From positions 1-42,412 of the forward strand of contig CANPZR010000002.1 of NCBI GenBank assembly GCA_947589175.1: a DNA stretch of 42,412 bases, in the 5' to 3' direction. This DNA is from an uncultured Lachnospiraceae bacterium. Its GTDB lineage: Bacteria > Bacillota > Clostridia > Lachnospirales > Lachnospiraceae. Positions 13,327 to 42,412 of this stretch are shown here, piece by piece; position 1 is the stretch's first letter, and each line of letters opens with the position of its first letter. A program made the position numbers and the translations under genes. Below the pieces are notes generated by a model. That model had not been told where the DNA came from, did no database searches, and saw nothing but the letters and a program-made list of their open reading frames with translations.

Positions 13327-13370
13327 AATTCTTTCAAAAATAATTTTTAAAAATTATTTTTGAAAGAATT
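13327..13370. repeat. Perfect 44-bp AT-rich palindrome
   Basis: Arms of 22 bp (13327-13348 and 13349-13370) with no unpaired centre, beginning AATTCTTTCAAAAAT and almost wholly A and T. It starts 3 bp after the stop codon of the MerR-methyltransferase gene. It could be a terminator for the long envelope operon, although there is no GC-rich stem and no T tract on the minus strand. Confidence 0.75.
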
Positions 13371-27881: not shown

Positions 27882-29168
27882 CTACAAATGATATGTCTCC
27901 AGCATGGCTTCCTGATACGCCGCTTTCTTTTCCCGAAGCATCATTTTTTTGATTTCCTGCAATCCCTCTGCCTTTACCTGATCCAGCTTTTTCAGACGGC
28001 TCTCTTCAATTCCAAGCTGGGAAATATACCGCATGTAATACTCTTCTTTGTAGTTCCAGAAACGGACGCGGCTTCCATATCGATCCTTTAGTTTCTGGGC
28101 AATCATCAGCCCTTCCGGATCGTAATCGCCCGCATAATAAATATTATTCCGACATGTCAGCATGTCTAACAGCACCCACACGGCCAGCCGAAGCTGCCCA
28201 TTGCCGCACAAAAAAGAGTTCTTCGGATACTGCTCGCAGAGCCAGGAAAAGACCGCTGGATTTTCTACCATGTAGACCGGATCTGCGTCCGCCCACATCT
28301 CCCGCATGTCTCCCAGCGCGCGGAGCGTAATCTGAACCGGCTGGCTCTCTCTAAAAAATCCCTCTATTCCCTCGTGCATCCGCCCATCTTTTTTCCTGCC
28401 ATGAATCCGGTATGCCAATACTACATTTGACAGATCATCTTTTAAAATACCCGCCCGGTAAAACAGCTGTCTCTTTTGCTCCGTCTTAGAAAATCCCTCT
28501 GTTCCCTCGTCGGTAAAAATGTATTTCAGATAATCGTACAGCAGCCGCTCCCCCTGTCTGCCCCTGTCAAAAAAATGCGGATCCCCCGTGGTTCTCGCTG
28601 CAAATACGGCAATTGTCTCCACCTCTCCCCGCTGGGACGGAAAGCTCTTTACGGCCTCCAGTACGTTTTGAAGGACCGCGCGGAAAGAGTCCGCGTCCTC
28701 CCGGTACTGGCTCATAGCCGCCCGGTGGTACAGATTGGCGGTACCATCCGCCATCTCCTGGAGCCACTGCCGCTGCCGCTCTTCTTTGCACTGTGATAAA
28801 AGCTCTTCAAAAAATGTATCCTTTTGCCGCTGCTCCCGGGTCTTTTTTTCTCTTTTCGTCTCCAGCGTCCGCCCAAAATAGCAGCAGAGAATCTCCTCCC
28901 ACGCAAGTCCGTCAAAACGGCTCCCCTCTAACGCCTTTTCCATTGTCTTGCCAGAGATCTGAACCGGTTCTTTTCCGATATAATCCTTCTGTAAAAATCC
29001 GCCAATCTGCACCTTCTCCTCCCGGCTCAGCCCCTCCAGCCGAATGCTCCCGCCCATATGGCCCAGACTTTCGCATTTCTCCCAAAAGAGTTGAAAAACC
29101 TTGTGAAATACGGGACGATTCTTAAAATACCGGATACATTCCTCCATCTTATCACAGCACAATTTCAT
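27882..29168 (-). CDS. jetD: Wadjet protein JetD (type II, DUF2399/TIGR02679-like nuclease)
   Basis: 428 aa. The C-terminal Toprim-like motif GDYDPEGLMIAQKL (about residue 347, Asp-x-Asp-x-x-Gly) matches the topoisomerase VI-like JetD of Wadjet. In characterised Wadjet systems JetABC extrudes plasmid DNA as loops and JetD cuts small circular DNA. The N-terminal half carries a helical DUF2399-type region. A GTG at 29171 and the ATG at 29168 are adjacent; the ATG is preferred, with AGG a few bases upstream. It overlaps jetC by 17 bp. The family assignment is from pattern recognition and gene order. Confidence 0.9.
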   Translation of the reverse strand: MKLCCDKMEECIRYFKNRPVFHKVFQLFWEKCESLGHMGGSIRLEGLSREEKVQIGGFLQKDYIGKEPVQISGKTMEKALEGSRFDGLAWEEILCCYFGRTLETKREKKTREQRQKDTFFEELLSQCKEERQRQWLQEMADGTANLYHRAAMSQYREDADSFRAVLQNVLEAVKSFPSQRGEVETIAVFAARTTGDPHFFDRGRQGERLLYDYLKYIFTDEGTEGFSKTEQKRQLFYRAGILKDDLSNVVLAYRIHGRKKDGRMHEGIEGFFRESQPVQITLRALGDMREMWADADPVYMVENPAVFSWLCEQYPKNSFLCGNGQLRLAVWVLLDMLTCRNNIYYAGDYDPEGLMIAQKLKDRYGSRVRFWNYKEEYYMRYISQLGIEESRLKKLDQVKAEGLQEIKKMMLREKKAAYQEAMLETYHL

Positions 29169-32100
29169 CACCTATTTCCTTTGCTATTTTTCGCACTTTC
29201 CCATTCCACACAAAGGGAAACACCGCTACGTACTTCACATTCTCCGGTCGGTGCAGCTCGTAAATAGCCAGCGATGGCACCGTCTCATAATCCCCCCACA
29301 GAATCTGGGAATTGATAATAAAATTAAATTCAAATTCCACCATAAGCCGGAACATATCTTTAACATTCATTTCATCGACTCCGGCAAATGCCTCATCCAG
29401 AGAAATCATCCTCGGGGCGTCGTCCCTGGCGCCTCTGTACTTTGCCACAACAGCAGAAAACAGAGGTACATACATCGCCATCGCCTTTTCTCCGCCGCTG
29501 AATGTAAAAAACACCCGGTCTGTGAGTTCCTTCTTTTTCTCGCCGGTCTTCTGGCACTCCAGCTGAAATTCAAACCATTGCCGGTAATCCAGTATTTCCC
29601 GCATAATTCCATGGAAGGATTGATATCCCGCGCCCTCCTCCGCCTGCCTGCGCACCTCGTTAATTTTCGAGCGAAAATGCCCTGACAATTTTTCTATATC
29701 CTCCTCCCGCATGATTTCCGCGTCTTTCTGCAAAAGCTCTACCAGGGCGTTTGTGTCCAGCTGACCTTCCTTTTCCGCCCGCTTGCTCCTCCATCGGAGA
29801 CTGAGCCGCAGGCCGCTGGACGTCTGCATGGATTCCATAAGGGCGTTCATGTTTTCCACCCAGCGCCTGCTGGCATGAATCCTCGCCCGGATTTTCTTGC
29901 TGATCGTATTTGCCAGGATATCCTCGAACAACTCGCGGTCCTTGTCGCTGAGCAGGCGCTCCCGTTCCTCCCTGTCCGCTTCCAGCTTCTGCCGAAGTTC
30001 CCGGAATGAAATAGACGCGCCCCTGTATTTGGCACGAATATCCAAGCGGGATATCCGAACTCCCAGCTCGGAATACGCCTCGCTCAGCTCTTCAAAATCT
30101 GTCTGTAATGTAATCTGGTACTCTGTCAGGTGTACCTTATACTGATGAAATACTTCCTGCACCTTCCCATACAAATCCTCCTGGCTTTTCTCCCCGGTCA
30201 TTCCCCGCAGCATCCTCTGGACGTCTCTGGCCCTCTCCTCCGGCAGCTTTTCTCCGCTTTCCTCCGACAGTACGGACACATCTTCCACAGACAGCCTGTA
30301 CTCGCTGTCAAACACCTCTTCCAGCTGTTTTTTCCGCATTCTCTCCCTGGCAAAAAGCTCTTCGTTTGTCTGACGGTCTCCGCGAAGCTGCTCGATCTTG
30401 TCCTCCAGGTTTGTCTCTCTCCTGGCCGAGACCACAATCTCGTTCTGCAGCTCGCCCAGGCGCTTCACGCAGTAATCCAGACGATCGCGGATCTGCTCAT
30501 AATCCGTCAGCGCAAGCTGCTCGCGCACAGATAAAAGCTTCGCTTCCTGCTTTTTTTGGGCAGCTGATATACGGCCGATCTCATAACGGATATCGTCCAA
30601 ATCCTGATCCAGCTCCTGCAAGCTCTCTTCAAACCCTTCAAGCATGCGGGTGCCGTTTAAATAAGCGCCATGTCCCTTTTTGACATCTGATAGCAATCTG
30701 TCATATTGTCTCAGGTTTTCCATCTCTTTTTGAAATGCCTCAAGACGGTGGGGAAGATATGCCTTTGCGCAGATTTCCTGAGCCTGAAGACTTACATCCT
30801 CCCACTCCGCCCGCTTCCGCTCCGACTCTTCTTCTTTCCTGCGCAGCGCGGACAACATGTCCGACAGATTCTTTTCCTTTTCGTCTAACTGCTTTCCGGC
30901 CGTCTTCAAATCCTCATCTCTGGGAAAAGCCGAAAATTCTTCTTTTAATGTACATAGCCGGTTCTCCCGCTCACGCAGCTCCGCCTCCAGCTTCCCCAGG
31001 CTATCCTCCAGCTCACCCTGTCTCTGCCGCAGCTCGCGCAGTTTTTCCTCCTTGTAGCGCTCCCTTGAAGCCGCCCCTATAAATCTGGCCGCATAAGTCC
31101 GGCTTGTGTTTCCCTCCATGAGCCCTATCTGATAACGGCCCTGACGGTCGGTCCAGGTCCCGGTCATTCCCTCACTGCCACGCTCCAGCCCGATTGCCGA
31201 CAGCGCCGCGCTCACCTGCATATACCGCCAAATGTCCTCCTGCCCATTTTCCACGTCCAGAAGATCCGCCAGGCTGCCGCCTCGTGCAGGAACCGCATCA
31301 CTGAAAATATATTTGTCACAATGTCCGGCATCCAGCGCCATCACCGAATCCCGATATTCCCCCGGCACAATCAAGGCATCCAGCAGGCCCATCTGCAGAA
31401 GGGCTTCTTCAAGCTGTCCCCTCTCGCCGTCTGTCAGCTCGTCCTTAAAATCCACGGTTTTATAAAATTCCAGGAAGGGAATTTCAAGCTCTCTTAATTT
31501 TTCCCTGTTCCGCAGCACCTCAGGCGTCCGCTCCGGCTCCGGTTCCCTGACGCTCTCCCACTCTCCGATCTCAATCTGCAGCTGCTCCAGCTCTTCTTTC
31601 AAGGGCTGACACTGACGGATAATCCCGCTCTTTTGATCCCGCAGATCATCCTCAATACAGTTATGCCGGTTGCGGACAGACTGAATAATCTCCGAATAGT
31701 CGTCCCCGTACCGGTAACTCTCGATCCATCTTGCAATTTCCTGCAGCTCTTCCGATGGAACATGCAGTTCTTTATTTTCCTTTTCCCACCTGTAAATCCG
31801 TTCCAGCAATTCGCTCTTTGTCTCATGAAGCAATTCGGCATACTGCCCGCATTCCCGCTCCGCGGCGTCACGCGCAGCCTTGGCTTCATCCAGCTCCTGC
31901 AGGGCGCGGTCGTAAGCGTCGCGGACATACTTTTCTTTCTCCAGAATACGGATGCCCTCTTCCACCCTGTCGCGGTGCGCCTGAAATAATTGCTCGTGGG
32001 CGGCAAAGGAATACTCCTCGTCCCGCCTCTCGCGCAGCTCCTGAACCAAAAAGCCGCTATCGTCAAAGGGACTGTCCTCCATAAGATCTTCCATTTCCTC

Positions 32101-33273
32101 CAGAGAACGCAGAACCTGATCCCATTCCCGTTCGTTTTTCTCCTGCTGCCCCTTTCTTTTTTCTTCCATATCCAGTCGATTTTCCGACTTACGCGACTCC
32201 TGCCGCTCCTTCTCCTCTAACTGATCTCCACAGTCCCCGATCTCTCCAAGAATACGCTGTTCTTCATCCTTCAGCCGCGCCGCGTCACTCTGGGAAAGCG
32301 AGTCCTTTTCCTCCTGCATGACCTCCTGCTCCCTCGTCAGCGCCGTGTAATTCTCCCGTTCCCCGGTCAGGGCCGCCTCCGTTTCTTCCAGCTGTCTCGT
32401 CAGCTCACCGGCCATTTTTTCATATCTGTCACATTCTTTTCCTGCTTCCAGATACGCCTCCGCCTTGTCATACAGAACTGCCCGGACATACTGTTCATAG
32501 GTGCGCGCAATCTGATCCGCCGCGCCAATGCTGTCCTTCAGAGAATCCAGGCTGGTTCTCATATTGTCCATATTTTCTATGGCTTCTGACATCGGGCGCA
32601 GATCCTCCTCCGACAGCGTCTGCAGGGAATTGCTCAGAATATCATTGATCACAGAGGGCTTAAAATCCTTTGAAAGCTTCGGCGTGCGAAGCTGTATAAG
32701 CAGCTCCAGCAGCTCCTTGTACTCCTCGATTGTGTCAAATCCGAACAAAAGGCGGTTCACGCAGCTGACGTACTCACTCTGCGTATCCATCACCTTTCCG
32801 CCATCCTCTAAGCGGTTGCGCAGTTCCGTTCTGGAAAAAGGTATTTTGTTATGAACGTCGCGGTAGAGAAAAAAATCCTTCCCGATTCTTCTTCCATCTG
32901 TAATGCAGAAATACCAAGACTCCAGTTTTTTATTTTTTCTTGCGCGAAGTCCGATGCCGATAGTCACGTACTGATCGGTCTCGCGGCGCCTGCACTCCAG
33001 ATAGAGATAGCCTGTCCGCTCATCGCGCTCATCCCCTTCCTCCAGAAGATAATTTTCCATCTTCCTCGCCCGCGATCCAAACGGATCCAGCCGCTCCGGG
33101 CGCATATTCCCATCCAGCAGAAGAGGAATAAGGCTCTGCATCGTCACGGATTTTCCGGAACCATTTGCCCCGCGCAATAACATCCTGCCATCCAAAAAAT
33201 AATATTCTTCCTCATCGTAATACCAGAAGTTGATCAGCCCCACTCTGTGCATCTGCCATTTATCATTTCTCAT
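29152..33273 (-). CDS. jetC: Wadjet protein JetC (type II, TIGR02680-like SMC/MukB-type ATPase)
   Basis: 1373 aa. Walker A GANGSGKS at residues 35-42, preceded by the family-typical LINFWYYDEEEYYFLDGRML and followed by PLLLDGNMRPERLDPFGSR. A very long coiled coil fills about 230-1200. The C-terminal head has FSGGEKAMAMYVPLFSAV (about 1240) and Walker B MISLDEAFAGVDEMN (about 1290). It is the motor of the Wadjet complex and would extrude DNA loops. The ATG at 33273 has GGAGAG 4 nt upstream; an upstream in-frame ATG overlaps this site. jetB ends 17 bp before. Confidence 0.95.
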   Translation of the reverse strand: MRNDKWQMHRVGLINFWYYDEEEYYFLDGRMLLRGANGSGKSVTMQSLIPLLLDGNMRPERLDPFGSRARKMENYLLEEGDERDERTGYLYLECRRRETDQYVTIGIGLRARKNKKLESWYFCITDGRRIGKDFFLYRDVHNKIPFSRTELRNRLEDGGKVMDTQSEYVSCVNRLLFGFDTIEEYKELLELLIQLRTPKLSKDFKPSVINDILSNSLQTLSEEDLRPMSEAIENMDNMRTSLDSLKDSIGAADQIARTYEQYVRAVLYDKAEAYLEAGKECDRYEKMAGELTRQLEETEAALTGERENYTALTREQEVMQEEKDSLSQSDAARLKDEEQRILGEIGDCGDQLEEKERQESRKSENRLDMEEKRKGQQEKNEREWDQVLRSLEEMEDLMEDSPFDDSGFLVQELRERRDEEYSFAAHEQLFQAHRDRVEEGIRILEKEKYVRDAYDRALQELDEAKAARDAAERECGQYAELLHETKSELLERIYRWEKENKELHVPSEELQEIARWIESYRYGDDYSEIIQSVRNRHNCIEDDLRDQKSGIIRQCQPLKEELEQLQIEIGEWESVREPEPERTPEVLRNREKLRELEIPFLEFYKTVDFKDELTDGERGQLEEALLQMGLLDALIVPGEYRDSVMALDAGHCDKYIFSDAVPARGGSLADLLDVENGQEDIWRYMQVSAALSAIGLERGSEGMTGTWTDRQGRYQIGLMEGNTSRTYAARFIGAASRERYKEEKLRELRQRQGELEDSLGKLEAELRERENRLCTLKEEFSAFPRDEDLKTAGKQLDEKEKNLSDMLSALRRKEEESERKRAEWEDVSLQAQEICAKAYLPHRLEAFQKEMENLRQYDRLLSDVKKGHGAYLNGTRMLEGFEESLQELDQDLDDIRYEIGRISAAQKKQEAKLLSVREQLALTDYEQIRDRLDYCVKRLGELQNEIVVSARRETNLEDKIEQLRGDRQTNEELFARERMRKKQLEEVFDSEYRLSVEDVSVLSEESGEKLPEERARDVQRMLRGMTGEKSQEDLYGKVQEVFHQYKVHLTEYQITLQTDFEELSEAYSELGVRISRLDIRAKYRGASISFRELRQKLEADREERERLLSDKDRELFEDILANTISKKIRARIHASRRWVENMNALMESMQTSSGLRLSLRWRSKRAEKEGQLDTNALVELLQKDAEIMREEDIEKLSGHFRSKINEVRRQAEEGAGYQSFHGIMREILDYRQWFEFQLECQKTGEKKKELTDRVFFTFSGGEKAMAMYVPLFSAVVAKYRGARDDAPRMISLDEAFAGVDEMNVKDMFRLMVEFEFNFIINSQILWGDYETVPSLAIYELHRPENVKYVAVFPFVWNGKVRKIAKEIGDEIVL

Positions 33274-33290
33274 AACTCTCTCCATTGCTA

Positions 33291-34427
33291 TTATTCATTC
33301 TGCTGTTGAAAATCCGCCGGATACTCTCCCGCAATCTTCCCGACCACCGGATTTACAAACACATCACTGCCGCTCATCTGTATCAGCTGAAGCTCTTCCA
33401 TATACTGCGTAATCTCCCTGATGAGCTCTGCCGTCGTCTTTTCCCTGTAGGTCTTGATAAAACCGTTTCCATACATCGTCTTGCACGTTTCAATAATCTG
33501 CTCAAATTTTGCCCGTGAAATGCAGATTCTCTCATTCGCCGGCACCTCGATTTTCCCCTGTTCAACTTCGCGCAAGAGCAGCCCGCCGCACAAGAGCGCA
33601 ATATCCGAGAGCGTATTTTCTTCCGGAAAACACCGCCCCATGCGACTCTCCTCGCCTAACACCATAAAAGCGCTTGTCCGATGAATCTGAAGGCTGCAGT
33701 CAAACAGCTCCTCCAGCTCGCCCCGAAGCATCCCCCGGTAATTTCGGATATAGGCAAAATCCTCTTCGTTGCGATCCGTCTTGCTGATTCCCATAGACAT
33801 GATCAGATTGCGGTACACCCGCTGCCTGCGGACGATTCCGCGATCCGCGTTGATATCAATCCACTCCTCATTCAGAAAATCCTCCTGTCCCGTATATCCC
33901 ATGATGTCTCTGGTGAAATTCCGGGTAAAATATTTGGATACTCCTGTATTTTCATATAAAACCTCGCTGTCCGCGTCTTTTGCAAATCCCTCCTCATCCC
34001 CATCGTTTACATTCATCATGCCGCACCCGACACAAAATTTGATGACGCGGATCAAACTGCGCCGATGGTGGTAGACGGTCCAGTCCGTATCCATCTCCTG
34101 ATTCTGTCCCTGCACATATTCTGTGAGCTCCGACAGAACGAACTGCTCCTCCGGCTCCTTATCCTCTAAAAACATAAGGACACAGCAAAAATACACATAG
34201 TCCCGGATACCCTTAAATTCCAATATTCCCATCCAGTTCTCCGGCTCCGCGGGCACTTTTTCCGCCTTGACAAGCATAGGATTGACAATTACCTGATAGC
34301 CCATTTTTTCCATGAGAAATTTTTTTACTTCTCCCAGCTCATCCTTGAGCTGATAATACAGTTCTTTTTCCCGCGATTTCAGAATCCAGCGGCGACTGAG
34401 CAAAATCTCCAGCGCCTTCACTGCCAT
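33291..34427 (-). CDS. jetB: Wadjet protein JetB (type II, DUF2398/TIGR02678-like, MukE-type)
   Basis: 378 aa, of the TIGR02678 family found only beside JetA, JetC and JetD. Features include ALEILLSRRWILKSREKELY near the N-terminus and a helical body with charged repeats such as RRQRVYRNLIMSMG. It is the KITE (MukE-like) subunit that bridges the JetC heads. ATG 34427 is chosen: GGGGAGGAGG directly precedes it and it overlaps the jetA stop by 10 bp. A longer upstream reading is a chance extension through jetA. Assignment is firm from context, moderate from sequence alone. Confidence 0.93.
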   Translation of the reverse strand: MAVKALEILLSRRWILKSREKELYYQLKDELGEVKKFLMEKMGYQVIVNPMLVKAEKVPAEPENWMGILEFKGIRDYVYFCCVLMFLEDKEPEEQFVLSELTEYVQGQNQEMDTDWTVYHHRRSLIRVIKFCVGCGMMNVNDGDEEGFAKDADSEVLYENTGVSKYFTRNFTRDIMGYTGQEDFLNEEWIDINADRGIVRRQRVYRNLIMSMGISKTDRNEEDFAYIRNYRGMLRGELEELFDCSLQIHRTSAFMVLGEESRMGRCFPEENTLSDIALLCGGLLLREVEQGKIEVPANERICISRAKFEQIIETCKTMYGNGFIKTYREKTTAELIREITQYMEELQLIQMSGSDVFVNPVVGKIAGEYPADFQQQNE

Positions 34428-35908
34428 CCCTCCTCCCCGGTAAATACCAATGTGTATGCGGGCATCGTAAATTCTCCATCGGTGCAATGAAGCACACAAG
34501 TCTCCCCTGCATTTTCCTCGATATAATACTCCCGTCCCTCCTCCGTCTTCGCCCTCTTGCTTTTTCTTTCCAGCGCCTTGGAGAGCCATGTCAGAAAAAC
34601 ATTCCGAATCTGCGGCTCAATCACTGGAAGTTTAGAAAAATCCAGACGGCCGCCCTCAATATATCCCTGCAGCAGAGCCCGTTCCCGCTGCGCGCGTTCC
34701 AGAATCTGGCGTCGGGTCCTCTCCTTTTCCTCCGTGCGGTACACAATTCCTGTCCTCTGGGTCTTTCCGCGGTAAGTGCGCACTCTCGGCTGTATCGTGA
34801 CCCAATGCGGCGGTTCCTCGTACACGCCGCTGTTGATGCTCTCCGTCTCCCGTATCACATCCGCTTTTAAGTGCAACGGCTTCTCAATGCCAAAGACACA
34901 GGCGGACAATCTGTGGGCCTCGTTCAGATTCCGGCATTTCATAAACATCTGTGCAAGCTTTTTGTACTCCTCCCGCCGATTCGCCCCGCGATTGCTCCAC
35001 TCGCTGATCCGCATGGCATAACGGGTAATCTTTCGTATGATTTCATTTGTCGTGTCAAATACCTTGCCCGCCTCTGACTCTTTCCCGTCTCCTCCATAAA
35101 ACCATCGGACAATGCTGTCCCATCGTCCCATGATATTCTCCCACACCTTTTCCTCCGACACTTCCACATCCATACGCGGAATCGCCAGCTCATACTCCTT
35201 CACGCTCGTCAGAATTTCCTCACATGTACGCTCATCCACTCCTTGAATATACTTCTCAATCATGGCCGCGTTCATCTGCAGGCTCTTCACAAAATTCCTC
35301 AGGTATTCAATCAGACGATCCTTGAACACGAGAAACTCTTTCGTCTTCATCATCTCTTCCGCTTTCACACTATTGAGCGTTCTCATGTAATCCTGATAAT
35401 TCTGGTTCAAGCGGACAAAATCATTGTTCAGGTCGTTCCACCATCCGTAAATCCTCTCGCCCGGCTGTCCCCGCATATCCTTCATCCGTGAAAAATGCAG
35501 GCGGATCCGTTCAAGCAGCGTCGGCTCCAGAGACGCCCCCTCAACAAACAAATTCTCCAGACGCACCACCATGCGCTCAATTTCAACCGAATATTCGGAT
35601 AACTGATAGCGGAATTTTTTATTTTTAAATTCCTCTATCGTGCTGACCTTGCGGGCATCCTGAATCGTGGCAAGGTTCCCCCACTCCACCAGCACAGCGA
35701 GATCCTGCTGGCACTGCTCCATCGTATAATCTGAAAAAAGAGGGTCCTGCCTGAGCTCCTCATACACTTCTTCCTGATACATCCAATATCTCAGTTGCTC
35801 ATAATATAAATAAAAAAGCCGCACAATAGGACGATACCGGTCTGTATTTTCCACATTCAGATACTTCGCCTCTGTGAGCGGCTTCGTCAATTTCTCTGTG
35901 ACCTTCAT
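34418..35908 (-). CDS. jetA: Wadjet protein JetA (type II, DUF2397/TIGR02677-like, MukF-type)
   Basis: 496 aa, TIGR02677 type. The N-terminal winged-helix-like region (about 15-90: YRPIVRLFYLYYEQLRYWMY, then a helix with EELRQDPLFSDYTMEQCQ) is followed by long helices. It is the kleisin (MukF-like) subunit joining JetC to JetB. The start ATG has AGGAGAGG 9 nt upstream. It is the first gene of the operon; the promoter with an overlapping LexA box lies about 60 bp upstream. Confidence 0.94.
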   Translation of the reverse strand: MKVTEKLTKPLTEAKYLNVENTDRYRPIVRLFYLYYEQLRYWMYQEEVYEELRQDPLFSDYTMEQCQQDLAVLVEWGNLATIQDARKVSTIEEFKNKKFRYQLSEYSVEIERMVVRLENLFVEGASLEPTLLERIRLHFSRMKDMRGQPGERIYGWWNDLNNDFVRLNQNYQDYMRTLNSVKAEEMMKTKEFLVFKDRLIEYLRNFVKSLQMNAAMIEKYIQGVDERTCEEILTSVKEYELAIPRMDVEVSEEKVWENIMGRWDSIVRWFYGGDGKESEAGKVFDTTNEIIRKITRYAMRISEWSNRGANRREEYKKLAQMFMKCRNLNEAHRLSACVFGIEKPLHLKADVIRETESINSGVYEEPPHWVTIQPRVRTYRGKTQRTGIVYRTEEKERTRRQILERAQRERALLQGYIEGGRLDFSKLPVIEPQIRNVFLTWLSKALERKSKRAKTEEGREYYIEENAGETCVLHCTDGEFTMPAYTLVFTGEEGWQ

Positions 35909-36712: not shown

Positions 36713-37111
36713 TTAATTTGCGTTCAGCTTAGACAAAAGAGCTTCCTGAAGCGTCTGCGAAAAATTTATTCCCCGTCTTGTGGCCTCATCGTTCATCCAC
36801 TCCGGGATGCTCAACGTCTTCTTTACTGCTCTTGACCGACTTTTTCTCCAATATTCATACATGTCAATCTCAACCACCATAAGGCAGCCGCCCTCTTCCG
36901 CTTTAATCGCATCCGGCTCCGATGCTTCCGGAATCTTTTCACCTGCCTCCATCATGCTTGAGATAGACAGACCGAGCGCATCCACCGCCATCTCATACGA
37001 CTGTTTCATATCCTCACCCTGTGTCATACATTCTGGGATATCCGGGAATGTCACCCAGAACCCGCCTTCCTCCGCTCTGTGAAAAATGGCAGGGAAAAAA
37101 AGTCTTTCCAT
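36713..37111 (-). CDS. hicB: HicB-family antitoxin without an adjacent HicA toxin
   Basis: 132 aa. The N-terminus is a HicB-like fold (FPAIFHRAEEGGFWVTFPDI, PECMTQGEDMKQSYEMAVD). The C-terminus has a ribbon-helix-helix-like segment (KKTLSIPEWMNDEATRRGI, then SQTLQEALLSKL). HicB normally neutralises and represses HicA. No about 60-aa HicA frame is visible on either side, so it seems solitary, either a remnant or a stand-alone regulator. AGGAGG lies 9 nt before the ATG at 37111. Confidence 0.85.
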   Translation of the reverse strand: MERLFFPAIFHRAEEGGFWVTFPDIPECMTQGEDMKQSYEMAVDALGLSISSMMEAGEKIPEASEPDAIKAEEGGCLMVVEIDMYEYWRKSRSRAVKKTLSIPEWMNDEATRRGINFSQTLQEALLSKLNAN

Positions 37112-37232
37112 ACGTGACAGCCTCCTTTTCCTTATCTTGATTATATTACGTATTCTTACGTATTGCAAGACTTTTTACATAATTTACACAATTCTACATT
37201 CATTCATGATAAATGACTACCAAATTCAAGTT

Positions 37233-37298
37233 TCACCAATCTTACCTTTCCTCCTCATACTCCTCGATTGCGCCATCTACGCCATACGCATATTCCCT
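37233..37298 (-). pseudogene. 3' fragment of a second copy of the Cys/Ser-rich secreted protein gene
   Basis: About 70 bp closely matching the 3' end of the gene at 40895-41374. It still reads EYAYGVDGAIEEYEEER but then meets a premature TAA, where the full gene continues EGEDW. The shared stretch runs from about 37226 to 37298 against 40888-40959. Only this end is present. Confidence 0.8.
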
Positions 37299-37699: not shown

Positions 37700-37842
37700 T
37701 TTTTCTTGGTTATCTTGCACTTCCATTCTACATCCTTACCAGTACCATAAAACGGTCTTGTTCTTCGAACTTATGTTTCCCTTATGGTCGAAAATATAAG
37801 TGCGACCATGCTGGACACACCCTATAAAAACTATGCCAGTTC
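37700..37842 (-). repeat. Structured repeat, copy A
   Basis: On the minus strand, from the 3' end of the 86-aa gene onward: a terminator-type hairpin (GTGTGTCC with GGTCGCAC, 37800-37820) followed by TTATATTTT; a second stem (37770-37780 with 37790-37800); and a GTTC/GAAC mini-hairpin (37760-37770). The loop of the second stem, CCATAA, can pair with TTATGG (37745-37750). Positions 37700-37812 closely match copy C. The right part and the gene 3' end match copy B. Confidence 0.85.
37800..37820 (-). terminator. Terminator hairpin in repeat copy A
   Basis: Stem GTGTGTCC/GGTCGCAC with a 5-nt loop (one T-T mismatch, one wobble) followed by TTATATTTTC on the minus strand. It would end the transcript of the 86-aa gene. 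Confidence 0.6.
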
Positions 37843-37848
37843 ATTTTT

Positions 37849-38109
37849 TTACTTTATGCCGTATTTTTCCTGCAACCGCTTAACTTCTTGGCCGAACCGA
37901 CGTGTGATTTCCCTTCTTTCTTTCATTTCCGGATTTCCGTCGATTCCGGCATTTCTTGGCTTGTCTTTATACTTTTCCTCAATAGCCTCCGCCTGACTCA
38001 TTGTTTCTTCCATCAATCGTTTTCCTTCCTCCATATATGCGTCCCATGCTTCTTTATCGTTTCTTTCTTTCATACTTGAAGCCATACTTTTTCGCCAACC
38101 TCCTGACAT
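37849..38109 (-). CDS. Small charged helical protein of unknown function
   Basis: 86 aa, hydrophilic, probably one or two long helices (MKERNDKEAWDAYMEEGKR, RFGQEVKRLQEKYGIK). GGAGGG lies 7 nt upstream of the ATG. Its last residues, EKYGIK, and the DNA after them match the end of the 72-aa gene at 40342-40560, so the two are related cassettes with different bodies. A promoter lies at 38128-38156. No family is recognised. Confidence 0.65.
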   Translation of the reverse strand: MSGGWRKSMASSMKERNDKEAWDAYMEEGKRLMEETMSQAEAIEEKYKDKPRNAGIDGNPEMKERREITRRFGQEVKRLQEKYGIK

Positions 38110-38127
38110 TTGACTTCCCTCCGGATA

Positions 38128-38156
38128 ATTCTATCATATTAAACTATGCTTATCAG
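38128..38156 (-). promoter_or_regulatory. Promoter of the 86-aa gene (shared cassette promoter)
   Basis: CTGATA (38151-38156) and TAGAAT (38128-38133) with 17 bp between. The spacer part GTTTAATATGA recurs before the genes at 40788 and 42115, and a similar TTTTATATGA at 40068. Confidence 0.65.
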
Positions 38157-38250
38157 TACTTTATTAAGCTATTCTTTAATTTCTTTTGCATCTTGTCAGC
38201 ACAATATTGCACAAATGCGGATAAGTTCATGTTTTTCAACTTTGCTGTGT

Positions 38251-38853
38251 CTATCTAACAATCCGAAATATTCTCGAGTCATATGTATGAGAATCAACTA
38301 CTGATACTCTACAATTTATCCATTGAAGTTTTTTGTTCATACTATCCTGTAACGCTTTCATGATCATCTTTTTGGATCGCGTCTTCCCAGCAAAATCGCC
38401 TTCAAGAAACAAAATAACATATTTCTTTTTCGAATCATCAGGAAAGCTGTCACTTAACATAAATTGTATACATTCCCTTAAATCGTCCACACACTCTTTT
38501 GTATCTTCAAAGGATTTTGCCCCAACCAAAGCAGCTAATGTCATTGCTGCTTTCTGTGCTACTTCAATATCCAGACTATCTCTGCCCTCCACATCAACAG
38601 AAGTATGTGTCGTATCGTGTTTTTGGTTATTCGGGAAAATTCTCCACCGACAATTTCCTTCATTCCCAGTACAGTTCTTTACTTCTATAAAAGCAATCTT
38701 ATCTTTATTAACAGAGATAAAATCAACACCCTTTGCTCCCGGTAATTTATTGAAATAATCCCTATAAAATTTTGTATCATCAAATTTTATCACCGTATCA
38801 TTCTCTGAAAACTGAAACTTTAATCCACTTTCTTTCCTGATATTATTCTCCAT
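38251..38853 (-). CDS. Small PD-(D/E)xK-type protein, likely nuclease, partner of the ATPase
   Basis: 200 aa from ATG 38853, with GAGG 7 nt upstream. Residues 44-59 (VDFISVNKDKIAFIEVK) give D44, E57 and K59, the spacing of a PD-(D/E)xK nuclease core. A second conserved-looking strand, YVILFLEGDFAGKTRSKK (about 147-164), may add basic substrate contacts. It overlaps the ATPase gene by 11 bp, so the two form an operon. It does not match HNH (Septu) or Toprim (PARIS, Gabija) effectors by eye. The nuclease call is an inference from the motif; the role could be defence or genome maintenance. Confidence 0.6.
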   Translation of the reverse strand: MENNIRKESGLKFQFSENDTVIKFDDTKFYRDYFNKLPGAKGVDFISVNKDKIAFIEVKNCTGNEGNCRWRIFPNNQKHDTTHTSVDVEGRDSLDIEVAQKAAMTLAALVGAKSFEDTKECVDDLRECIQFMLSDSFPDDSKKKYVILFLEGDFAGKTRSKKMIMKALQDSMNKKLQWINCRVSVVDSHTYDSRIFRIVR

Positions 38854-39907
38854 AAATAATCCTCTGTTCTCTATCATACATCGCATCAAATTCCTCCATA
38901 ATTGCATTATGTTCCAAATCAGATGCTGAATTTTTTATTTCGTAACTAATATTTCGTGTTTTTTCATCCCTAAACAATGAAATAAATCTGATATCCAATT
39001 TTTGGGGATTTAATTCCGGATAAGCTTCAATCATATTAAACTCCTGTTGAATAAAATAATCATGTGTGGAAACAAAAATCTGTACTCCCATCTGTGCTAA
39101 AGCAACCATTGCCTGTACAATTGGGTGAATCATTTTAGGATTCATATTCGTTTCTGGCTCATCCCAGAATAAAATTGTATTTTTATTTAAACTTCCTGAA
39201 AGAATCATATAAACAATCATGGATAGCTTTCTATATCCATCTGAAAGCAATCCCATCTCAAATTCACCTTCACCTTTGATTTTGAAATAAAATTTCTTGT
39301 TTTTCTGAACAATTTGTCCTTTCATTATGTCTTCCAAATTATTTAATACCTGATTCTGTTCAGTAGTGTTAGGACCTTTTGAAATTGGTCGATCCAAAAG
39401 TTTTGCAAGGTCATAATACATCTCTTCGAAATCTATATGATATTCATCATATAACGACACAAAATGTTCTACCGTAGAAATCATTTCCTTTGTAGGAATA
39501 TAAATAACATCATATTTCTCTGTTTTCTTACTTTGTACTATGGAAACATCTGCATGATTTTCCTGTCTATTTCCAAATCCAACTGCAATCTTTTGATTCT
39601 TATCCAAATCGAGAGAAAATTCTGTTCTGTTACTTCCTTGTTTACGGCTTACTAATCTGCCAATTTTCATTTCATCAGGACGGAACACACCTTGGATTTT
39701 TTTTACAAAAATCTGCTCTTCCATCTCTTTTGTCAAATTATCTCTATTTCCATTACTAAGCGGTTTTATCAAAGAATACATCACTTTCAAAATCGTTGTT
39801 TTTCCGGTGCTATTTTCACCACTAATAACATTAATGTTATCTGACCAATTCATTTCTGCATTTTCAAACGCCATAAAATTATTTAATGTTAACTTTTTAA
39901 TTTTCAT
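38843..39907 (-). CDS. ABC/AAA-type ATPase (AAA_15/AAA_21, OLD-like head)
   Basis: 354 aa without a Toprim domain. Walker A GENSTGKT at residues 30-37, signature LLSDGYRKLSMIVYMIL, Walker B TILFWDEPETNMNPK and switch His in FVSTHDYFIQQ. This head is typical of ATPases in phage-defence pairs (Gabija, Septu, PARIS, AbiL). AGGTGAT lies 8 nt before the ATG. By eye the gene is much more AT-rich than the jet genes, a sign of recent acquisition. Its partner is the PD-(D/E)xK-type protein downstream. Confidence 0.88.
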   Translation of the reverse strand: MKIKKLTLNNFMAFENAEMNWSDNINVISGENSTGKTTILKVMYSLIKPLSNGNRDNLTKEMEEQIFVKKIQGVFRPDEMKIGRLVSRKQGSNRTEFSLDLDKNQKIAVGFGNRQENHADVSIVQSKKTEKYDVIYIPTKEMISTVEHFVSLYDEYHIDFEEMYYDLAKLLDRPISKGPNTTEQNQVLNNLEDIMKGQIVQKNKKFYFKIKGEGEFEMGLLSDGYRKLSMIVYMILSGSLNKNTILFWDEPETNMNPKMIHPIVQAMVALAQMGVQIFVSTHDYFIQQEFNMIEAYPELNPQKLDIRFISLFRDEKTRNISYEIKNSASDLEHNAIMEEFDAMYDREQRIIYGE

Positions 39908-40061: not shown

Positions 40062-40090
40062 ATTCTATCATATAAAACCCTGTTTTTCAA
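40062..40090 (-). promoter_or_regulatory. Promoter of the ATPase-nuclease pair
   Basis: TTGAAA (40085-40090) and TAGAAT (40062-40067) with exactly 17 bp between on the minus strand. It resembles the shared cassette promoters (TATATGATAGAAT) and overlaps the end of the doubtful frame at 40068-40331. Confidence 0.65.
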
Positions 40091-40331
40091 TAATAATCGT
40101 AGAAATGATAATTTCCTTCTCTCTTTTGCAATTAAAAGGGGATCCATCAGCCAGCGATATCTGACGAATTCTCTGTTTCTTTTTATAAGCACATCTAGCA
40201 CTTTTACCATATATGTCTACAAGCCGTTCTCTATATTCATCATTATTCTCTACGCAAGCCGAACGGTCTTGTTCTTCGAACTTATATTTTCCTTGCAGTC
40301 GAAAATATAAGTGCGCCCATGCTGGGCGCAC
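40068..40331 (-). CDS. Doubtful 87-aa frame that starts inside repeat copy B
   Basis: The first about 25 residues (MRPAWAHLYFRLQGKYKF and on) are encoded by the structured repeat itself and start in its terminator hairpin, with no ribosome site. The rest (DEYRERLVDIYGKSARCAYK and on) is hydrophilic and could be the remains of a real gene joined to the repeat. I recognise no domain. It is listed as a possible gene remnant. Confidence 0.25.
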   Translation of the reverse strand: MRPAWAHLYFRLQGKYKFEEQDRSACVENNDEYRERLVDIYGKSARCAYKKKQRIRQISLADGSPFNCKREKEIIISTIIIEKQGFI

Positions 40332-40341
40332 CCTATAAAAA
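40251..40341 (-). repeat. Structured repeat, copy B
   Basis: First hairpin GTGCGCCC/GGGCGCAC (40311-40331, perfect), then a perfect 11-bp stem CTTATATTTTC (from 40301-40311) with GAAAATATAAG (from 40281-40291), then GTTC/GAAC (40271-40281). The loop TGCAAG (40292-40297) can pair with CTTGCG (40253-40258); copies A and C have CCATAA/TTATGG there instead, so the pairing is kept while bases change. Homology to copy A continues into the end of the 72-aa gene. The left end is shorter than in A and C. Confidence 0.85.
40311..40331 (-). terminator. Terminator hairpin in repeat copy B
   Basis: Perfect 8-bp GC-rich stem GTGCGCCC/GGGCGCAC with a 5-nt loop, followed on the minus strand by TTATATTTTC. 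It lies 10 bp after the stop of the 72-aa gene. Confidence 0.75.
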
Positions 40342-40560
40342 CTATGTCAGTTCATTTTTTGGCTTTATGCCGTATTTTTCCCTGATTTCATCCACACGCC
40401 TATCCATTTCTTTGTCGATATAGGCATAATACTCCCTGTTGGTATCCAGGCCACGATTTATGCCCTCTTTTTTTAGGCGGGCCATAACTTTGAGCGTTTC
40501 ATTGGTAGCCCACCGAAGAACGTCCATACATTCTTCGTCCGCTTTCTCCTCATTCGTCAC
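40342..40560 (-). CDS. Small charged helical protein of unknown function (72 aa)
   Basis: GTG start with AGGAGG 7 nt upstream. The protein is hydrophilic and helical (DEECMDVLRWATNETLKVMA, EYYAYIDKEMDRRVDEIREK) and ends EKYGIKPKNELT. The EKYGIK end and following DNA match the 86-aa gene at 37849. It follows the 69-aa gene by 18 bp. A decayed copy whose interior is deleted lies at 41807-41884. Confidence 0.65.
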   Translation of the reverse strand: MTNEEKADEECMDVLRWATNETLKVMARLKKEGINRGLDTNREYYAYIDKEMDRRVDEIREKYGIKPKNELT

Positions 40561-40578
40561 GCTTCCACCTCCTGTAAC

Positions 40579-40788
40579 CTATTTCCAGATATTCTGCTTC
40601 CAATATAACCATTGTGCTTCGGTCTCCAATGTGACTGCTCCGTCTCCTTTCAATCCTTTTTTGACGTACTCTTTGACCAGATACATATGTTTGTCATTCC
40701 CATGTGTTCCATATTTTCTCCCTTCTCCGTCCGGCTTCGCATGCCCGCTGCCATTTCGGTCAGTGTCGTTCGGCTTCTCTCTTGACAT
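40579..40788 (-). CDS. Small hydrophilic protein of unknown function (69 aa)
   Basis: Gly/Asp/Lys-rich start (REKPNDTDRNGSGHAKPDGE), then KHMYLVKEYVKKGLKGDGAV and an aromatic end WLYWKQNIWK. No ribosome site precedes the ATG, and the -10 of the shared promoter (TAGGAT) includes this ATG. So either another promoter is used, or the true start is further in. A frameshifted second copy at 41903-42115 supports it having been a real gene. No family is recognised. Confidence 0.5.
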   Translation of the reverse strand: MSREKPNDTDRNGSGHAKPDGEGRKYGTHGNDKHMYLVKEYVKKGLKGDGAVTLETEAQWLYWKQNIWK

Positions 40789-40815
40789 CCTATCATATTA
40801 AACCATGCTTGTCAG
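40787..40815 (-). promoter_or_regulatory. Shared cassette promoter overlapping the start of the 69-aa frame
   Basis: CTGACA (40810-40815), 17 bp, TAGGAT (40787-40792). The sequence around it closely matches that at 38128-38156. The -10 covers the 69-aa start codon, an odd arrangement. Confidence 0.55.
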
Positions 40816-40894
40816 CGCTTTATTAAACTATTCTTTTAATTTTTTGACAAGTTTGCAGACCAGCCAGTAGCCGCAAACGAAAGCTGATCAAATT

Positions 40895-41374
40895 TCACCA
40901 ATCTTCCCCTTCCTCCTCATACTCCTCGATTGCGTCATCTACGCCATACGCATAATCCCTGTCATTATTATATCTGTCGTAATCATAGTCTCCGTCCATA
41001 TAGACATCATCATATCCATCATCGTAAGATTCATATGACTTCTTTTTGGTTGTTGTACTTTTCTTAGTATTACCGCTATATGATGGGCGTTTGGTCGTAG
41101 TTGATTTGCTGCTGTAACTGCTGGTGCTTTTCGAATCACTCTTGGACGAGCTGCTTGAGGATTTGCTGCTATAGGAATAACTCCCATATGCGGATGCGCT
41201 CCCGCTTGACGGCTTGTGCAGATTACAATAACCACTGTATTTAGCCCGTTCGTTATTACAGCCGGGAGCAAGGCATTCGGGCACATTTGCATCGTCCATA
41301 ACAGCGCCGGCCCATGCGACGCCTACGAACACAAGAAAGACTACAGCACACAGTACCAAAGTAGAATTTTTCAT
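40895..41374 (-). CDS. Secreted low-complexity protein with a Cys-x4-Cys/Cys-x2-His knuckle
   Basis: 159 aa. A signal peptide (about 1-23) is followed by a small motif CLAPGCNNERAKYSGYCNLH (about 34-53) that could bind zinc. Next comes a Ser/Lys/Thr/Tyr-rich stretch (about 56-115) and an acidic Asp/Tyr/Glu-rich tail. AAAGGAG lies 9 nt before the ATG. It is probably exported or surface attached, function unknown. A 3' fragment of a second copy is at 37233-37298. The 80-aa gene lies 81 bp upstream. Confidence 0.75.
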   Translation of the reverse strand: MKNSTLVLCAVVFLVFVGVAWAGAVMDDANVPECLAPGCNNERAKYSGYCNLHKPSSGSASAYGSYSYSSKSSSSSSKSDSKSTSSYSSKSTTTKRPSYSGNTKKSTTTKKKSYESYDDGYDDVYMDGDYDYDRYNNDRDYAYGVDDAIEEYEEEGEDW

Positions 41375-41455
41375 ATAGATCAGCTCCTTTAAAAATATAA
41401 GTATTTTTATAATTTCTTTGGGATTCCGAAAAAAGTATTCGTAACATCCATCAGT

Positions 41456-41698
41456 TCACAACTGTTTCTCCTTTTTCGCATATTTAAACTCGACCGCTTC
41501 TCCAGGCGCGTCATACTTGCCTTTTAAGTGCTGTTCATAGAAATATTGCCGCCCATGCTTTCTAATATCCTCTATTGCCTTTTCGCAATCATGGTGATAG
41601 CCAGGCGGTGTAACTCTGTTATTTGATTTCCACTCTGTAATCTTTGACGGCAAATAAAAAATACAGATTATTATGATTGTGCCAATTATAGTACCCAT
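41456..41698 (-). CDS. Small single-pass membrane protein of unknown function
   Basis: 80 aa from ATG 41698, which has GGAAGGG 6 nt upstream. An N-terminal membrane segment (about 1-17, MGTIIGTIIIICIFYLP) precedes a hydrophilic cytoplasmic or outer part containing HHDCEKAIEDIRKHGRQYF. It directly follows repeat copy C. No family is recognised. Confidence 0.6.
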   Translation of the reverse strand: MGTIIGTIIIICIFYLPSKITEWKSNNRVTPPGYHHDCEKAIEDIRKHGRQYFYEQHLKGKYDAPGEAVEFKYAKKEKQL

Positions 41699-41724
41699 AA
41701 AAATCCCTTCCTTTCTCAAACAGG

Positions 41725-41845
41725 TTTTTCTTGGTTATCTTGCACCCCTATTCTACATCTTTACCAGTACCATAAAACGGTCTTGTTCTTCGAACTTATG
41801 TTTCCCTTATGGTTGAAAATATAAGTGCACCCATACTGAGCGCAC
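41725..41845 (-). repeat. Structured repeat, copy C
   Basis: Nearly identical to copy A over 41725-41837. Hairpin GTGCGCTC/GGGTGCAC (41825-41845, two wobble pairs), second stem 41795-41805 with 41815-41825, and loop pairing CCATAA (41807-41812) with TTATGG (41770-41775). Beyond 41845 the homology to A and B stops, because the cassette gene before it has been cut short. Confidence 0.85.
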
Positions 41846-41884
41846 GCTTTCCCATTCCTTTTGAGCCAGATCTTCATTCGTCAC
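41807..41884 (-). pseudogene. Truncated copy of the 72-aa gene fused into repeat C
   Basis: Keeps the ribosome site and first codons of the 72-aa gene (GTG start, MTNED), then after about 13 codons runs into the repeat (ending VHLYFQP). The middle and end of the gene are deleted. Confidence 0.7.
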
Positions 41885-41902
41885 GCTTCCACCTCCTATA
41901 AC

Positions 41903-42115
41903 CTATTTCCAGATATTCCGCTTCCGATATAACCTCATCGTGCCTCGGCCTCCAATGTAACTGCTCCGTCTCCTTTCAATCCTTTTTCAGCGTACTCTTT
42001 GACCAGATACATATGTTTGTCACTCCCATGTGTTCCACCTTTTTCTCCCTTCTCCGTCCGGCTTCGCTTGTCCGCTGCCATTTCGGTCAGTGTCGTTTGG
42101 CTTCCATCTTGACAA
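41903..42115 (-). pseudogene. Decayed copy of the 69-aa gene
   Basis: Matches 40579-40788 along its whole length, but the start ATG is now TTG, an extra base in the GRKYG region shifts the frame, and a second change near the end removes the aromatic tail. The promoter part keeps TAGAAT (-10), but the -35 side is missing. Confidence 0.8.
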
Positions 42116-42285
42116 TTCTATCACATTAAACTATTCTTTTTAGCCACAACAATAACCTGCATCCATTGCTGTATTCCATGCTGTCTCTTTATTATCGTAT
42201 GCATCTTTAATAAAAACAAAATTTTTTCTCCATATTACTTACTTTCAAACTTGCTTTTTCTGTTTACATCGGTTATAATAATTAA
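42116..42285 (-). other. Gene-free right-hand stretch with a coding remnant
   Basis: About 300 bp at the right end have no intact gene. On the minus strand, 42140-42232 reads without stop as a tail (KNFVFIKDAYDNKETAWNTA and on, ending AGYCCG) but lacks a start codon, so it looks like the 3' end of a broken gene. It lies just upstream of the decayed 69-aa copy. Confidence 0.4.
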
Positions 42286-42337
42286 GGAGACTCCCCTTCG
42301 CCCATATTGGTGGAGGGGTAAAGTCTCCATTATTTTT
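42286..42337. terminator. Long bidirectional terminator hairpin
   Basis: Outer arms GGAGACT (42286-42292) and AGTCTCC (42322-42328) enclose a further 10-bp arm pair, CCCCTTCGCC with GGTGGAGGGG (two wobbles), and a CATATT loop. On the plus strand it is followed by ATTATTTTT; on the minus strand by TTAATTATTATAA. It probably ends a minus-strand gene lying beyond the right edge. Confidence 0.7.
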
Positions 42338-42412
42338 GGCTCATCATCAGAATGTGTGGAATAAAAATTGGCTTAAAGCCTCATAAACATTGAAAAAGCA
42401 TACGATCTCTGT

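Follow-up and report, generated by a model that had tools for sequence, protein, structure and literature searches.

Repeated cassettes in a Lachnospiraceae defence island that probably carry orphan polymorphic-toxin tails and immunity genes

The window analysed here is the whole of contig C2 (CANPZR010000002.1; 42,412 nucleotides) from the draft genome of an uncultured Lachnospiraceae bacterium (G000, GCA_947589175.1), which comprises 2.72 Mb in 360 contigs and is 81.5% complete. Three related cassettes lie within 4.5 kb of this window, namely copy A (41725-42144), copy B (40262-40858) and copy C (37700-38199). The cassettes, like every feature treated here, are on the minus strand. Only one further genome has the cassette locus, the sister-species MAG G032, which is 87% complete and ~96% identical to the window (contig CANRJU010000006.1). 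The features of the locus are as follows.

27882-35908, minus: Wadjet type II, complete JetA2-B2-C2-D2 operon (PADLOC)
37226-37298, minus: relic of the 3' end of a 159-aa gene, adjoining the border of presence and absence of a HicB-like gene; 93% over 73 bp to 40888-40960
37700-37870, minus: cassette C 3' module and repeat with degenerate hairpin; 93% over 114 bp to A, 91% over 120 bp to B
37849-38109, minus: cassette C 86-aa ORF, a divergent immunity-like gene whose true start is likely the ATG at 38073; HMM E=4.5e-6
38054-38110, minus: cassette C probable toxin-tail relic, SNVRRLAKKYGFKYERKKR and stop, a weak match (8.4 bits, E=0.21)
38128-38156, minus: cassette C predicted promoter, CTGATA-17-TAGAAT
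38251-39907, minus: HEC-02A/B candidate defence pair, an AAA ATPase and a DUF6661 protein (PADLOC)
40262-40381, minus: 3' module common to B and C, consisting of the last codons of the small gene, the terminator and the subsequent repeat; 91% over 120 bp
40309-40333, minus: cassette B intrinsic-terminator-like hairpin, where the structured repeat begins; fold z=-4.1
40342-40560, minus: cassette B 72-aa gene, immunity-like and intact, with a GTG start overlapping the toxin-tail stop and the Shine-Dalgarno sequence AGGAGGTGG; HMM E=6e-17
40550-40624, minus: cassette B toxin C-terminal tail relic, VILEAEYLEIGYRRWKRDE and stop, with 2 nt lost upstream relative to copy A; HMM E=0.0037
40579-40788, minus: 69-aa ORF covering the leader and the frame-shifted toxin-tail relic, probably spurious
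40787-40815, minus: cassette B sigma-A-type promoter by consensus match only, CTGACA-17-TAGGAT, with extended -10
41725-41848, minus: cassette A terminator hairpin (41845-41825) and subsequent repeat
41840-41884, minus: cassette A small-gene remnant with type-2 core, ~14 codons, cut by a deletion at GTGCGC
41874-41948, minus: cassette A toxin C-terminal tail in the ancestral frame, RHDEVISEAEYLEIGYRRWKRDE and stop; E=9.7e-6 locally
42115-42144, minus: cassette A promoter region, placed by alignment and not called by prediction, with a degenerate -35 (CTAAAA)
42284-42412: end of the window, adjoining the CRISPR array of the sister species

G032 is colinear with the window at 96-97% identity across 28-41.8 kb and runs beyond the end of the window's contig into a CRISPR array, csn2, cas2, cas1 and cas9 (type II-A; locus L013, 14275-19983). 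The cas genes of G000 are found on contigs C214 and C197 at 98-100% identity to those of G032, so the CRISPR array is probably where the window ends. The cassettes are placed between CRISPR-Cas II-A, HEC-02 and Wadjet II and thus lie in an anti-phage defence island.

Self-BLASTN of the window upheld the claim of a first-pass annotation that the segment is present twice, as a continuous 274-bp alignment joins 40547-40816 to 41871-42144 with 89.4% identity (E=2.9e-98), well above anything chance would give. A further match joins 40262-40334 to 41776-41848 at 86% (E=6e-18). The third copy had been overlooked. Copy C has its promoter, 3' module and repeat in common with the other two, and its repeat, at 93% over 114 bp, is nearer to that of A than B's repeat is. 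The homology continues past the shared gene (274 bp at 89%, plus the repeat at 86-93%), as in a segmental duplication. Copies A and B differ by 1-nt and 2-nt indels, with TTG in A where B has ATG, and no origin was recognised for the ~150 nt upstream of the toxin tail in either. Promoter-like sites were called in two of the three copies, and terminator-like sites also in two. The most plausible reading of the structured repeat is an intrinsic terminator and adjoining flank. Its reading as an RNA family was dropped, as an Rfam search matched no family and the hairpin fits a terminator with its flank.

Comparison between strains, for which cassette number and order had been proposed as a check, found all three copies in G032, in the same order and at matching positions. 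Paralogs A and B differ by ~11% while orthologs differ by ~4%, and the duplication is therefore older than the species split. The internal deletion previously described in copy A, fusing the start of the 72-aa gene to the repeat, was also borne out. Relative to G032, ~180 bp are absent from this copy, and the small-gene start is joined to the terminator hairpin and structured repeat. The deletion lies between 6-bp GTGCGC repeats, leaving microhomology at the junction. Position A in G032 holds an intact 73-aa ORF, so the loss is private to the strain of the window. An assembly artefact is unlikely, given that the shared indels were seen in an independent MAG and that microhomology at the junction extends over no more than 6 bp.

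A four-way alignment of A and B from G000 and G032 revealed a different history for the small gene and for its surroundings. Upstream of the gene, 10 sites group by position and none are swapped, and downstream 18 are positional and again none swapped, giving 28 to 0 for the flanks in total. Within the gene itself, the first 41 columns that can be compared show the inverse pattern, with 13 sites swapped and 0 positional. This indicates that gene cores moved between cassettes A and B while the flanks stayed in place. A simple reciprocal swap after the species split was rejected, as the type-1 cores (G000-B and G032-A) are 18% apart with a dS of 0.37, compared to about 0.03-0.07 for neighbouring genes. 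A pool of older alleles is thus needed rather than one recent swap. The exchange of cores looks like homologous recombination. The active turnover of cassettes proposed earlier is supported by this core swap, the private deletion in A and the presence or absence of the HicB-like gene, but the duplication itself is old.

The 72-aa gene belongs to a family with relatives in phages. An HMM constructed from phage genes only, without window sequences, was run over six frames of the window and 20 kb of G032 and matched exactly the intact cassette genes of each genome (E=9e-23, 3e-18, 6e-17, 4.5e-6 and 9e-6; next match 0.3). The 72-aa gene is under purifying selection with a dN/dS of 0.26-0.39, and the small gene of copy C has a dN/dS of about 1.1, from 9 changes. 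The 72-aa protein is modelled as two predicted helices (pLDDT 87). Foldseek with this hairpin returned no specific match, and scans of the small proteins against Pfam, PHROGs and NCBIfam assigned no family. An Imm-NTF2 match at 40068-40331 (E=0.0013, under the curated cut-off) was discarded as the start of its ORF passes through the repeat. A second, unrelated genome (G279; locus L042, 5974-6192) has an orphan member of the family, preceded by a toxin-tail scrap that ends in IGYRRWKY and a stop codon. Type I-C cas3-cas5-cas8c begin some hundreds of bases downstream of this orphan.

Relatives from other genera lie directly 3' of phage minor head proteins, within the head module and before the scaffold gene. 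The N-terminal part of these head proteins is either Phage_Mu_F or Phage_min_cap2, whereas a C-terminal domain of ~142 aa, taken here as the toxin domain, is common to them. The phage small genes encode 62-105 aa and sit where an immunity gene would, with a start overlapping the toxin stop codon. When viral contigs were searched with the toxin domain only, a family gene overlapped the toxin stop in 5/5 loci (L044, L045, L047, L048 and, weakly at E=0.0024, Fusobacterium phage FNU_1P). The ORF in FNU_1P (L060, 2920-3177; MZ503612.1) is an unannotated 85-aa frame that overlaps the minor capsid gene's stop codon and has a weak match to the immunity-like family. Two further viral matches, L027 and L028, were dropped as they involve 33 residues from an unrelated phage protein. 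The toxin domain carries a conserved E..HNHP...SxxD motif, which is suggestive of a JAB/JAMM metalloprotease. Its best Foldseek matches are cytidine deaminases (E=0.037, TM about 0.35).

The position of the phage copies, in the head module right after the minor head protein and ahead of the scaffold, would also suit an accessory of head morphogenesis such as a MuF chaperone, in which case the chromosomal copies would hinder phage assembly or do nothing. This is considered unlikely, as the small gene accompanies the C-terminal domain whichever of the two unrelated N-terminal types, Phage_Mu_F or Phage_min_cap2, the head protein has, and the family small gene is absent from phage loci with divergent C-termini.

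Remnants of the same C-terminal domain precede the small genes in the cassettes. A profile of the toxin C-terminus, built from phage loci only and without window sequences, was searched against 39 genomes of the genus. It matched the copy A tail at 41880-41957 (profile positions 114-142, E=9.2e-4) and the orthologous site in G032 (E=4.5e-4). In copy A the tail terminates within the start of the 72-aa gene, the same arrangement as in phages, and the DNA at this junction is near-identical between cassette and phage (GGTTACAGGAGGTGGAAGCGTGACGAATGA vs. GGCTATCGGAGGTGGAAGCGTGAATGATAG). Once the profile was extended with the new phage loci and applied to six frames of 62 kb (the window plus 20 kb of G032), its best four matches were copies A and B of the window and of G032, and C matched more weakly. 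In a control of 500 dinucleotide shuffles per region, 0/500 scored as high as A, B or C. A full toxin is absent from G000 and G032, where only the last 20-25 codons are left, although this absence is provisional because both MAGs are incomplete (81.5% and 87%).

These tails bear on the 69-aa ORF, which the first-pass annotation had listed as the first of two genes in the segment. Searches of 299 family genomes, 50,697 phage records and IMG/VR turned up no homolog of it. The ATG of this ORF and the predicted -10 box of the cassette B promoter overlap, and its last third is the toxin C-terminus read out of frame, the correct frame being kept in copy A. The ORF is present only in copy B because a 2-nt difference closes the toxin frame there. 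It is probably not a gene. The copy B orthologs of the two species differ by only 5 substitutions (3 synonymous and 2 nonsynonymous), so a coding role is still conceivable. The signs of decay read earlier in copy A must be revised in turn. The change from ATG to TTG is real, but TTG is still a legal start and the claim of a lost start codon is weak. The indels behind the reported frameshift also exist, but the two species have them in common, and the derived state of the 2-nt indel is that of B. Copy A has indeed lost its second gene, but over the 69-aa segment the direction of decay is inverted, as A keeps the toxin frame. The earlier reading, in which a cassette of two genes (69-aa and 72-aa) underwent ordinary segmental duplication and one copy is decaying, is improbable. 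It accounts for the homology and the deletion, both of which are real, and for a 69-aa ORF that both species keep open in copy B. However, it is opposed by an ORF without homologs whose ATG lies in a predicted -10 box, by the toxin frame passing through the 3' third of the segment in copy A, and by the age of the duplication relative to the species split.

The repeated segment is instead probably an orphan polymorphic-toxin tail with its immunity cassette. The source would be a MuF or minor-capsid protein of a temperate phage, one that ends in a toxin-like domain and is followed by an overlapping gene in the immunity position. Three such 3' ends appear to persist in the chromosome, each with ~20-25 toxin codons, the overlapping small gene, a terminator and a promoter in front. 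The proposed order of the unit is promoter, short leader with toxin-tail scrap, strong ribosome-binding site, immunity-like gene and terminator. The predicted two-helix product may neutralise a toxin domain that is injected with phage heads or made by the prophages of competitors, and we infer that the small protein acts in this way against phage-delivered toxin as acquired immunity within the defence island. Common flanks on the promoter and terminator sides would let homologous recombination swap divergent cores. The present state would then be a gene in A lost here by the GTGCGC deletion, an intact B and a diverged family member in C.

It may be that the cassettes are instead passive prophage debris, all that is left of prophages after decay and chance duplication, and offer no protection. 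The dead gene of copy A in this strain, the loss of the toxin and the dN/dS of copy C, albeit from few changes, agree with such debris. Conversely, no further phage gene was seen among the scanned proteins of 36.7-42.4 kb, and three copies with promoter-like and terminator-like sites in two each, purifying selection on the 72-aa gene and a location among three defence systems are not expected of it. Debris is therefore held to be rather unlikely, and an orphan tail and immunity cassette is still preferred.

The cassettes resemble the MuF polymorphic toxins of temperate phages (Jamet et al. 2017, PMC5576092), in which small ORFs follow 89.4% of the toxins and are proposed to be immunity genes. 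Here too the relatives of the small gene lie directly 3' of MuF or Phage_min_cap2 proteins, and the window keeps the last codons of a MuF-type toxin with an overlapping small gene. The phages of these relatives infect Firmicutes and, weakly, include one Fusobacterium phage, with the C-terminal extension on a head protein. Unlike MuF systems, the window has no MuF protein and its cassettes are chromosomal, present in three copies, equipped with their own promoter and terminator, and located in a defence island.

As in the T6SS orphan immunity arrays of V. cholerae (Kirchberger et al. 2017, PMC5361080), immunity genes here would outlast their effector and diversify by homologous recombination at shared flanks. 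In V. cholerae, however, this follows effector displacement within a T6SS cluster, whereas here the toxin belongs to a phage head protein and the cassettes are paralogous. The AID and rAID arrays of Bacteroidales (PMC12247911) are similar in holding orphan, divergent immunity genes without a toxin, presumed to protect against the toxins of others. They differ in their T6SS source, compared to Lachnospiraceae and a phage-borne source toxin here, and no tyrosine recombinase, which accompanies rAID arrays, was seen among the scanned proteins of 36.7-42.4 kb. As in an orphan immunity array, immunity-like genes occur without a cognate toxin in these incomplete MAGs, and several homologous ones are clustered. 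Integron cassettes likewise pair each small gene with a structured repeat behind it, but here the repeat is a terminator hairpin with its 3' flank and exchange looks like homologous recombination. This comparison was dropped as there is no integrase among the scanned proteins of 36.7-42.4 kb and no Rfam match.

No description of orphan MuF immunity genes was found in the literature searched, the nearest being PMC5361080 and PMC12247911. As a more general proposal, for which we hold somewhat less than even confidence, bacteria may keep orphan immunity arrays in defence islands against phage-injected MuF toxins and diversify them by core swapping. Hosts that keep and shuffle such genes beside CRISPR-Cas and Wadjet would indirectly support MuF toxins being of consequence in the gut. 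The cassettes and phage loci also provide defined gene pairs for testing the action of MuF toxins on recipient cells. More broadly, relatives of a scrap that is read out of frame can be the key to decoding duplicated small genes with a structured repeat.

Several minor observations concern the surrounding sequence. The terminator hairpin at 40309-40333, GTGCGCCCAGCATGGGCGCA, recurs unchanged at the 5' ends of intron-like elements from other Lachnospiraceae (L014, L015 and L018), two of which are followed by a reverse-transcriptase-like ORF. An origin as a group II intron relic was not retained for the hairpin, as only 20-30 nt are shared with these 5' ends. A HicB-like antitoxin-type gene (36713-37168, minus) is present in the window and absent from G032. 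The 159-aa protein (40895-41374, minus) has a signal-like start, a zinc-ribbon-like Cys/His stretch and a tail rich in Ser, Lys, Tyr and Asp. Further away, a perfect 44-bp palindrome lies between two genes at 13327-13370 and is probably a bidirectional terminator.
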